A program made the position numbers and the translations under genes. Of a DNA stretch of 64,000 nt, positions 33,937-37,982 are shown one piece after another. The DNA is from Pseudomonadota bacterium (GTDB lineage: Bacteria; Pseudomonadota; Gammaproteobacteria; Pseudomonadales; Pseudohongiellaceae). Below the pieces are notes generated by a model. It searched no databases. It saw only the letters and a program-made list of their open reading frames with translations, and was not told where the DNA came from. Each line of letters opens with the position of its first letter. The stretch's first letter is position 1. The stretch spans positions 1 through 64,000 of the forward strand of contig JAQCBT010000008.1 in assembly GCA_027621405.1 (NCBI GenBank), in the 5' to 3' direction.

Positions 33937-34410
33937 CTAGAACGGGATGTCATCGTCGAAGTTGTCGAAATTCTGGGGAGGCGGCGCACTCGACGCCTGT
34001 TGACCACCCCCGCCACCCTGCTGAGATCCAGAATGCGACGCAGGCCGATCACCGAAGTCCGCGCCAGCTCCACCACGGGAATCCAGCATCTGCATCTCAT
34101 TGGCTACGATTTCGGTGGTATAGCGTTTCACCCCATCCTGTTCCCAGGAGCGGGTTTGCAGACGGCCCTCAATGTAAAGCTTGGAGCCCTTCTTGACATA
34201 TTGCTCGACAATCTCGGCCAGTCGATTAAAGAAAACAACGCGGTGCCATTCCGTCTTTTCCTGCTGCTCGCCGGTATTCTTGTCCTTCCACGTCTCGCTG
34301 GTCGCCAGCGAAACATTCGCCACGGCATTGCCGTTGGGCATATACCTGACTTCAGGGTCATTACCCAGATTACCGACGAGGATTACCTTGTTTACACCAC
34401 GACTTGCCAC
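33937..34410 (-). CDS. ssb: Single-stranded DNA-binding protein
   Basis: I place the start at GTG 34410 (first residues [16 protein letters not shown]), preceded by GGGGAG; the longer ORF adds 60 unrelated residues. The 157-residue protein has the OB-fold landmarks [29 protein letters not shown] and [15 protein letters not shown], a Gly/Gln-rich linker, and the acidic C-terminal tip DDDIPF that recruits partner proteins. It is divergent from uvrA, the classical gammaproteobacterial arrangement. Confidence 0.96.
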
Positions 34411-34481: not shown

Positions 34482-34561
34482 TTTCCAGCGAAATGAATCT
34501 ACGGTTATTGGCTTTTATTGACGCTGGCCGGGATGCCTGGCCGTTCAGAGCAACCGGAGGC

Positions 34562-34659
34562 GGAGGGTCTGGGTTGAGCGCTCCCTCCACGGGGCCATCC
34601 CTGGCCCCGTCCCGCTGCTGTCCCTGCAGCTAGTCGCTCGCACTCAACCCAGACCCTCC
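34562..34659. repeat. 17-base inverted repeat with nested hairpins
   Basis: Perfect arms GGAGGGTCTGGGTTGAG (34562-34578) and its complement (34643-34659) enclose 64 bases. Inside, CGGGGCCA-TCCC-TGGCCCCG forms a perfect eight-base stem, and a CTGC/GCAG stem follows. The whole would fold as a branched cruciform or RNA. Confidence 0.8.
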
Positions 34660-34684
34660 CCCTCCTCTTCGAATCTCGTGCGAG

Positions 34685-34907
34685 GGCATCCCTATCTCGT
34701 TTCCTGCTCCATACAACGGGAACACGCAGACTGGCACTGAAGAGCAATGGTTTGTCCTGTAATCTTGGTTGGGACCGTGTCTAGCATGTTCAACTGATGT
34801 GCCACGGCATCCCTTTCTTTCACTTTTTCATACAATCAAGATTCGCAGCCTTGCACTGAAGAGCGGTGAATTGTCCGTGAGTGCAGTTTCGGACCGTGCG
34901 AGGCATG
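34685..34907 (+). repeat. Degenerate tandem duplication (two units of about 104 bases)
   Basis: Unit one (34685-34788) and unit two (34806-34907) share, in order, GGCATCCCT, a CATACAA block, GCACTGAAGAGC, a TTGTCC block, GGGACCGTG or CGGACCGTG, and GCATG. The matching blocks sit at a constant offset of about 120 bases, with diverged sequence between them. Confidence 0.7.
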
Positions 34908-35053
34908 GATGCCGAGCCCGAGCCCCCAGGGGTGAGACCGAGCGCCTTGCAAGCGCCAGCTTGCAGCGAGTATCAAACGACACCGATCTGTGATCGGTGG
35001 CTGGGCCCGGGTTCACGGCGTGTCCGAAACTGCACTCACGGACAATTCACCGC
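34863..35053. repeat. 32-base perfect inverted repeat enclosing two hairpins
   Basis: Arm one (34863-34894, beginning GCGGTGAATTGTCCGTGAG) and arm two (35022-35053) are exact reverse complements over 32 bases. The 127 bases between hold TGCAAGC-GCCA-GCTTGCA and CACCGATC-TGT-GATCGGTG stems, so the unit folds as a multi-branch structure. Arm one is also part of the second tandem unit. Confidence 0.85.
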
Positions 35054-35093: not shown

Positions 35094-35123
35094 TTTACTC
35101 TCGTAAACATAATCTTCGATAAT
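35094..35123 (+). promoter_or_regulatory. Candidate sigma-70 promoter for uvrA
   Basis: TTTACT (35094-35099) and GATAAT (35118-35123) are spaced by 18 bases and match consensus at four and five positions. The transcript would begin about 25 bases before ATG 35154. Confidence 0.45.
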
Positions 35124-35153: not shown

Positions 35154-37982
35154 ATGGACAAGATCGTAGTTCGGGGTGCCCGCACCCATAACCTCAAGAA
35201 CATCAACCTGACAATCCCCAGAGACAAGCTGGTGGTGATCACAGGGCTATCGGGTTCCGGGAAGTCATCCCTGGCATTCGACACACTCTATGCCGAGGGT
35301 CAGCGCCGCTACGTAGAGTCGCTGTCCACCTATGCGCGCCAGTTCCTGTCCATGATGGAGAAGCCTGACATCGACCACATCGAGGGTCTGAGCCCGGCAA
35401 TCTCGATTGAGCAAAAATCAACCAGCCATAACCCCCGCTCAACTGTGGGAACGATCACCGAGATTTACGACTATCTGAGGCTGCTGTTCGCCAGGGTTGG
35501 CGAGCCCTATTGCCCGGATCACAAGATCAAACTGGAGGCACAGACCGTCAGCCAGATGGTGGACAAGGTCATGGAACTGCCAGAGGGTACGCGCATCATG
35601 GTGCTGGCGCCCATCATCCGCGAGCGCAAGGGTGAGCACCTGCATGTATTCAATGAGTTGCGCACCAGCGGCTTCATCCGGGCGCGGGTCGACGGGCTGG
35701 TCTGCGAGATCGAGTATCCACCAGAGCTGGAGAAGAACAAGAAGCACTCAATCGACGTGGTAATCGATCGCCTGAAGATAAAGGATGGCCTGCAACAGCG
35801 GCTGGCAGAGAGCTTCGAGACGGCGATCCAGCTGGCAGACGGGCTGGCCATGGTCACCAACATGGATGATGAGTCCGGGGAAGACATGGTGTTCTCCTCT
35901 CTGTTCGCCTGCCCGAAGTGTGGTCACAGCATCACCGAACTGGAGCCGCGACTGTTTTCCTTTAATAACCCGGCTGGAGCCTGCTCAAGCTGCGACGGCC
36001 TCGGCCTGAAGCAGTTCTTCGATGAGAAGCGCATCATCGTGGATGAGAGCCTGGCACTGGCGGAGGGTGCCATTCGAGGCTGGGATCGGCGCAACATCTA
36101 TTACTTCCAGATGCTCACATCCCTGGCAGATCATTTTGGTTTCGAAATCGACAAGCCATTCAACAAGCTATCGAAGACGCACCGGGAGATCATTCTGCGA
36201 GGCAGTGGCAAGGAAGAAGTTGAATTCGTCTACGTCAATGACCGCGGCAACACCTACACTCGCTCCTATCCCTTCGAAGGCATCCTGCCCAACATGGAAC
36301 GACGTTACCGGGAAACCGAATCCAATATGGTCCGGGAAGAGCTGGCCAAGTACCTGGCGTCCCAGCCCTGCCCCGACTGTCAAGGTACGCGGCTACGGCG
36401 CGATGCCCGCCACGTGTACATCAAGGGTACGAACCTGCCCAGCGTCACCGAGATGACGGTCGCCCAGGCTGCCGATTATTTTGCTGCGCTCAAGCTCACC
36501 GGCAAACGCGCGGCGATCGCGGAGAAGATATTGAAGGAACTACAGGATCGGCTGAAGTTCCTCGTCGATGTGGGCCTGAATTACCTGACCTTGAGCCGCA
36601 GTGCCGACACCCTGTCCGGCGGCGAGGCGCAGCGTATTCGGCTGGCCAGCCAGATAGGCGCGGGCCTGGTGGGGGTTATGTATATCCTGGATGAGCCCTC
36701 AATCGGCTTGCACCAGCGGGACAATAATCGATTGCTGAACACCCTGTTTCACCTGCGCGATCTCGGCAACACGGTAATCGTCGTGGAACATGACGAGGAA
36801 GCCATCCGCAGCGCCGACCATGTCATCGACATTGGCCCAGGTGCCGGTGTACACGGCGGAGAGATTGTCGCCGAGGGCCCGGTGGAGAAAATTGAGAAGT
36901 CGAAGAACTCCTTGACCGGCAAATATCTCTCCGGCAAGGAGACCATCGCCGTACCGAAGAAACGCATTCCACGGGATGACAAGAAAATACTGAGCCTGAA
37001 AGGCGCCAGTGGTAACAATTTACAGGGCGTGGACCTGAACATTCCCATAGGCCTGTTTACCTGCGTCACCGGGGTATCCGGTTCAGGCAAGTCCACGCTG
37101 ATCAACAACACGCTCTATCCCATCACTGCGACGAAACTGAACAAGGCGACAACCCTGGATCCGGCGCCCTATGAAGAGATATCGGGGCTCAACCATCTCG
37201 ACAAGGTGGTGGATATCGACCAGAGCCCGATCGGTCGCACTCCACGCTCCAATCCCGCGACCTATACCGGTATTTTCACCCCAGTGCGGGAGCTATTTGC
37301 GGGCACCCAGGAGGCGCGCAGCCGCGGATACAAGCCAGGACGCTTCAGCTTCAATGTAAAGGGTGGCCGCTGTGAAGCCTGCCAGGGTGATGGCGTGGTA
37401 AAAGTCGAGATGCACTTCCTGCCCGACGTGTATGTGGCCTGCGATGTGTGTCGTGGCAAACGCTATAACCGGGAGACACTGGAGGTTAAGTACAAGGGCA
37501 AGAATATTAACGAGGTGCTGGAGATGACTATCGAAGATGCCCGCGAATTCTTTGATGCCGTGCCGGCCATAGCCCGCAAGTTACAGACCCTGATGGACGT
37601 CGGCCTCTCCTACATCTGCCTCGGCCAGTCGGCCACGACCCTGTCTGGCGGGGAAGCGCAACGGGTGAAGCTCTCCCGCGAACTTTCCAAGCGGGATACG
37701 GGCAAGACCCTGTATATTCTTGATGAACCCACTACCGGCCTGCACTTCCACGACATCAAGCAGTTACTGGCCGTGCTGCATCACCTGCGGGACCATGGCA
37801 ATACCATCGTGGTCATCGAGCACAACCTGGATGTAATCAAAACTGCGGACTGGATCGTCGATCTTGGGCCCGAGGGCGGCAGCGGCGGCGGCAGGATCAT
37901 TGCCGAAGGCACACCGGAGCAGGTGGCCAAGAAACGAGGATCCCACACAGGAAAATTCATCAAGAGCACCCTGGCTGCCTGA
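35154..37982 (+). CDS. uvrA: Excinuclease ABC subunit A
   Basis: ATG 35154 ([19 protein letters not shown]) gives a 942-residue protein, against 940 in E. coli; the ORF-track start at 34881 adds 91 residues translated from the inverted repeat. Both ATPase halves are intact: Walker [10 protein letters not shown] and GVSGSGKST, signatures [11 protein letters not shown] and [11 protein letters not shown], and Walker [14 protein letters not shown] and [13 protein letters not shown]. Zinc-binding cysteines appear in CPKCGHS...CSSCDG and CEACQGDG...CDVCRG. UvrA dimers scan DNA for bulky damage and load UvrB. Confidence 0.97.

Follow-up and report, generated by a model that had tools for sequence, protein, structure and literature searches.

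A palindromic element between ssb and uvrA as a probable long-module member of a gammaproteobacterial repeat family with predicted CsrA sites

Three separately catalogued elements come closest to the sequence studied here. TwoAYGGAY (RF01731, clan CL00106) is an RNA motif described as a pair of hairpins with CsrA motifs, with tandem GAs and an external stem of low conservation, for which CsrA binding has been proposed (PMC4333381). YPAL, or RU-2, is a mobile Yersinia palindromic sequence of ~168 bp, described for Yersinia and Erwinia, that inserts near dyads with variable target duplications (PMC2229807, PMC2759123). Ysr224 (RF02770) is a Yersinia sRNA. A full-text search with partial coverage of the literature returned no paper that mentions YPAL, TwoAYGGAY or Ysr224 together with another of the three. 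We analyzed a 64,000-nucleotide stretch of a Pseudohongiellaceae genome (the window), which carries an inverted repeat between ssb and uvrA. Our best explanation, with a probability of roughly 0.7, is that its 191 bases are a long-module copy of an old gammaproteobacterial repeat family with a predicted CsrA-site role. The three elements are already known; their linkage, as far as that search reaches, and the long variant are new.

The arms of the inverted repeat lie at 34863–34894 and 35022–35053 on the plus strand. They are exact complements over 32 of 32 bases and flank a 127-nt spacer. The repeat folds at −122.7 kcal/mol as RNA (z −10.4) and with a z of −11.2 as DNA, and none of 200 shuffles folded equally well. 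By simple arithmetic, the number of perfect 32-nt inverted repeats expected by chance within 200 nt is ~1e-12 in 64 kb. The perfect 32-base repeat reported by the initial annotation is exact and far beyond shuffles. The right arm had also been placed about 40 bases before the uvrA −35 box. Its end is indeed 40 nt from the promoter TTTACT-N18-GATAAT (35094–35123, plus), which is found at the same position in relatives, downstream of the element. The uvrA gene (35154–37982, plus) is ~88–97% identical in amino acids over its first 200 residues in most congeners. Divergent from it is ssb (33937–34410, minus), recognized by its ORF and conserved start region.

Next to the left arm, hairpin 1 (CGUGCGAGGC-AUGGAU-GCCGAGCCCG; 34895–34920, plus) carries the tandem G.A/A.G pairs and C-AUGGAU-G loop of the consensus fold of 45 copies, and is matched by the RNA model at 54 bits. 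It includes CATGGATG (34904–34911, plus) and GGC-ATGGAT-GCC, a third internal stem that had escaped the earlier reading. The two stems named in that reading are both present, at 34948–34965 (TGCAAGC/GCTTGCA, plus) and 34981–34999 (CACCGATC/GATCGGTG, plus). They are the two hairpins of a long-core module (34940–35005, plus) that recurs at other loci, with covarying pairs in 13 long-core copies. An alignment of the same 13 copies identifies a relict hairpin 2 (34922–34939, plus), in which the loop AGGGGU replaces AGGGAU. Of the GGA hairpins, the window copy retains hairpin 1 alone; its second loop has GGG. A closing strand, CCCGGGTTCACGGCGT (35006–35021, plus), completes the core, whose end is conserved as YACGGCGT in alignments.

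A second member of the class, which the initial annotation had overlooked, lies on the minus strand at 34556–34665. Its arms (34556–34581 and 34640–34665) are 92% complementary and enclose the hairpins GGGGC-CAGGGATG-GCCCC (34591–34608, minus) and GCTGCAGGGACAGC (34617–34630, minus). Decayed tandem copies had been described beside the main repeat. We find one at 34725–34788 (plus), which aligns without gaps to 34844–34907 over 64 nt; it is real but partial, consisting of the left arm and the start of the core.

Members of the family share a general design, a stem of ~20–60 bp that varies by locus yet remains complementary, closed around two hairpins with C-ANGGAN-G loops. The short-core consensus, built from 45 copies, has an outer stem and two hairpins with C-ANGGAY-G loops, the first of which (hairpin 1) contains tandem G.A pairs. 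A search for covarying stems, which the initial annotation had suggested, found compensated changes across these copies in 19 of 23 RNAalifold pairs. In the loops, the letters CA-GGA and the closing C-G hardly change, and the N positions vary. In the long form, to which the window copy belongs, hairpin 2 is C-ANGGGU-G and is followed by the module of ~75 nt with its two covarying hairpins. An extra small module occurs inside hairpin 1 of three copies from the window's own genome (on contigs C29 and C8 and at C32:241767) and of two from Pantoea (L243, L245). In the three own-genome copies (G000:C29:29196-29302, G000:C8:26317-26420 and L004, G000:C32:241767) this nested module has its own opposite-strand CAGGGATG hairpin. 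Separately, five copies in genome G021 (L111, L117, L118, L123 and L124) are split at the identical core position, GAACGCGAAG^TATCCATGTTGTCAAGG. All five are interrupted by one and the same sequence, ≥100 bp long, which is probably an insertion sequence using the repeat as its target.

The RF01731 model matches elements genome-wide, with most copies below its gathering cut-off of 43 bits. A copy from the congener G024 exceeds the cut-off at 43.1 bits, and copy C40 of the window's own genome scores 34.0 bits. The second element in the window is matched over the full length of the model (34548–34673, minus; 28.6 bits, E 0.036 for one genome). An Rfam search of the region gave no RF01731 match to the main copy; the only matches there were to animal and plant microRNA hairpins, which are spurious and result from the long perfect stems. 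RF02770 matches the copies found by RF01731 repeatedly and end to end, on their opposite strand. The strands of a single element seem to be entered in Rfam as two families with no link between them. The printed Yersinia pestis RU-2 sequence (PMC2759123) has the same fold as the elements. It aligns to C40 (z 20.7), C29 (z 14.3) and a Pantoea copy (z 30), and not significantly to the window long form (z 1.3) or to the second element in the window. Judged by sequence and predicted fold, one element underlies TwoAYGGAY (sense strand), Ysr224 (opposite strand) and YPAL/RU-2.

Searching the 191 bases in this genome and its relatives, as the initial annotation had proposed, showed a multicopy interior, patchy in congeners, and unique arms. 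The search of the own genome matched several more interiors and returned no second copy of the left-arm sequence. We counted copies with R1, a covariance model of the short core with 58 positions. At E values of 1 or less it finds 10 places in the own genome, of which 8 are strong, giving 8–10 copies. Among congeners, 38 of 84 carry copies, with 0 to at least 66 per genome. A class-wide sample of 274 gammaproteobacterial genomes from 222 genera contained the element in 48 genomes and 42 genera; contigs bearing it include those of Pseudohongiella, Halieaceae, Perlucidibaca and Steroidobacteraceae. Plasmid and phage collections gave no match to a Pseudohongiella-type core, nor did phages and E. 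coli to a Yersinia-type core. The elements are intergenic and multicopy, and the adjoining genes are unrelated to each other (map/rpsB, sbcB/pyrB, hemC/argH, mreB/mreC). At sbcB/pyrB (G000:C32:106737-107037) and map/rpsB (G000:C29), inverted pairs of elements face outward between divergent genes. The cores of the sbcB/pyrB pair form a 59-nt near-perfect inverted repeat, with arms that differ. One copy in G021 (L113, 354–600) is immediately upstream of a tRNA-Ile(GAT) gene, and a copy in the own genome (L140, 1473–1590; G000:C19) lies antisense between mreB and mreC.

The arms are nearly everywhere complementary but private to their locus. Many have zero mismatches across 26–59 nt, the upper end being reached in G024, and mismatch-free arms of 21–36 nt occur in several families of the class. 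Arms of 62 nt with one mismatch (L014) and of 45/45 (L028) were also found. Between copies of a genome, the arm stretch 8–16 nt from the core is 47–60% identical (random, 38%), compared with 79–100% for hairpin 1 in the six element-rich genomes measured. In the own genome both are divergent among copies. Hairpin 1 stems differ between families; constraint alone thus does not explain how uniform hairpin 1 is within a genome. In the 6.6-Mb congener G024 many copies (L098–L109) have the outer arm sequence GTCAGAGTAAAAATACAGTA in common, in the manner of REP sequences.

Arm mismatches are strongly strand-biased. If selection acted on double-stranded DNA only, one-step decay would give equal numbers of G.T and A.C mismatches on each strand. 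Taking copies as independent, though related copies are not, we counted on the element strand 52 G.T to 5 A.C in a first set with one fixed wobble removed (76:5 with it), 33:3 in a second set from other species (18:3 without fixed positions) and 11:3 in a third set from across the class (p 0.06 alone); the counts without fixed positions omit L125. This excess indicates that selection acts on that folded single strand, read CGTGCGAGGCATGGATGCC. The simplest reading is that the selected molecule is RNA, although the bias could also arise from single-stranded DNA of one polarity in folded form. G.U makes up ~3% of arm pairs, less than we would expect if this were a typical RNA stem, and some process at the DNA level may therefore contribute. 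At an orthologous element in two congeners (L026/L033 in G022 and G002), about six arm pairs have changed on both sides with pairing kept. We find no support for the recent duplication-inversion put forward by the initial annotation: near-perfect arms are specific to each locus, and at orthologous sites they evolve through compensated substitutions. The two other readings offered there, a non-autonomous mobile element and a structured RNA, are supported jointly by the many dispersed copies and by arms that covary with a strand-specific G.U bias.

Mobility could account for the family by itself. The elements would then be purely selfish and non-autonomous, moved as folded single-stranded DNA by the enzyme of another element, with CsrA uninvolved. 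Copy number swings widely among congeners, copies sit next to unrelated genes in all orientations, and relatives differ in whether a given site is occupied; a single-stranded DNA intermediate would also fit the strand-specific folding. On Pantoea agglomerans plasmids, about a dozen strains carry an element at one hydrolase/pirin site and the majority lack it, with flanks 95–99% identical and a terminator hairpin on both sides of the filled site. In P. vagans the same element occurs with no terminator copy on its left, which makes gain and loss indistinguishable at this site; the Pantoea pattern could reflect either insertion or deletion between direct repeats. Copy number does not follow the occurrence of Y1 transposases. 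We dropped a RAYT-driven origin of the REP/RAYT kind because PF01797 (RAYT-type Y1) has no match in ten element-rich genomes (G021, G020, G036, G073 and six others), a result that also weighs against a purely selfish element. We identified no transposon with matching terminal inverted repeats, and the arms differ between copies rather than forming the conserved terminal inverted repeats of a classical MITE. Transposition alone leaves the arm pairing kept after insertion at the orthologous site unexplained, and the invariant loop letters match the CsrA signature exactly. We therefore consider a purely selfish element possible but rather unlikely.

A DNA-level process might instead keep the arms perfect, through template switching at replication (quasipalindrome correction), with RNA having no role. 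The long mismatch-free arms at many loci fit this, as does the much greater variability of arms than of cores among the copies of one genome. Correction of this kind is symmetric between strands, whereas G.T greatly exceeds A.C on one of them, and among Pantoea species an arm has changed on one side only. We regard this explanation as improbable. The origin of the arms is a separate matter. Capture of the target by each copy as its arms was dropped, because copies within a clade share arm ends and the orthologous pair changes stepwise with compensation. A more speculative idea, which we hold with low confidence, is that self-templated (snap-back) synthesis copies one flank back on itself at or after insertion of the conserved core, giving each locus a private perfect stem. 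If so, a mobile RNA element would build protective double-stranded arms from local sequence.

The initial annotation had also raised a supercoiling-sensitive switch for uvrA. A cruciform or attenuator controlling uvrA (and ssb) would suit a position between divergent promoters, and in about six species two outward-facing elements occupy the ssb–uvrA site. Most congeners, however, have no element there, its presence is scattered on the uvrA tree of the genus, the same elements adjoin many unrelated genes, and the window copy lies upstream of the conserved uvrA promoter. Nothing ties it to uvrA regulation, a uvrA-specific switch is not supported, and control of uvrA is very improbable as an explanation of the element. 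Orientation relative to genes showed no bias. At tandem sites, a crude ORF method gave 17 elements sense and 12 antisense to neighboring genes. A rule that element sense follows gene sense holds for several divergent pairs in the own genome and fails overall in these counts. With orientation unbiased and no correlation with transposases, a uvrA switch and a classical MITE are both unsupported. An assembly-inversion artefact can be dismissed: some G021 contigs terminate inside copies, and the 76-nt perfect arm of L125 stops exactly at a contig end (G021:C85) and is probably artefactual itself, but identical anatomy recurs in tens of independent assemblies, including the single-contig genome G024 and complete Pantoea plasmids.

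We return to a repeat family with a CsrA-site role, for which the filled and empty Pantoea sites count as well. The loop signature C-ANGGAN-G is the recognition signature of CsrA/RsmA, with the CANGGANG loop on the element strand, and the genome has one csrA gene. CsrA binding of the elements is predicted on this basis. The element would be transcribed, its two GGA hairpins would be bound by a CsrA/RsmA dimer, and the long stem would present and protect them. Scattered copies might then serve as CsrA sites, acting as a sponge or locally on a host transcript. The absence of a sense bias argues against a purely cis mRNA-leader role; roles that do not depend on the host transcript (an own transcript, a sponge or mobility) are as probable as action in a leader or tail. 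As a CsrA site, the window copy, with its single GGA hairpin, is probably weak or altered. If CsrA does bind, mobile repeats would add tens of CsrA sites to genomes, offering selfish DNA a route to retune a global regulator. The analysis brings a mobile repeat, an orphan RNA of Rfam and an antisense 'sRNA' together as one class-wide element, with evidence for the functional strand.

Among the closest known systems, TwoAYGGAY has in common with the elements two ANGGAY-loop hairpins, tandem G.A in one stem and a weakly conserved outer stem. Short-core copies have two AYGGAY-type loops, tandem G.A is present as CGAG/CGAG in hairpin 1 (Watson-Crick pairs take its place in C40), and the external stem is without sequence conservation. 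The window main copy departs from TwoAYGGAY in its loops, AUGGAU then AGGGGU (GGG), and in its ~75-nt module. Ysr224 differs in strand and in its AUCCNU loops, and its scores are always below its cut-off of 70 bits. YPAL/RU-2 shares core homology with the C40, C29 and Pantoea copies and is likewise intergenic and multicopy, with internal inverted repeats. CsrB/RsmZ-type sRNAs also present GGA in hairpin loops, likely CsrA sites, but are single-copy genes with many GGA hairpins, whereas the elements here have one or two each in many copies. BOX elements of Streptococcus pneumoniae are modular dispersed repeats with an outer stem, optional inner modules and conserved ends. The likeness to BOX is in modular design; the arms here, unlike BOX ends, are private to each locus.
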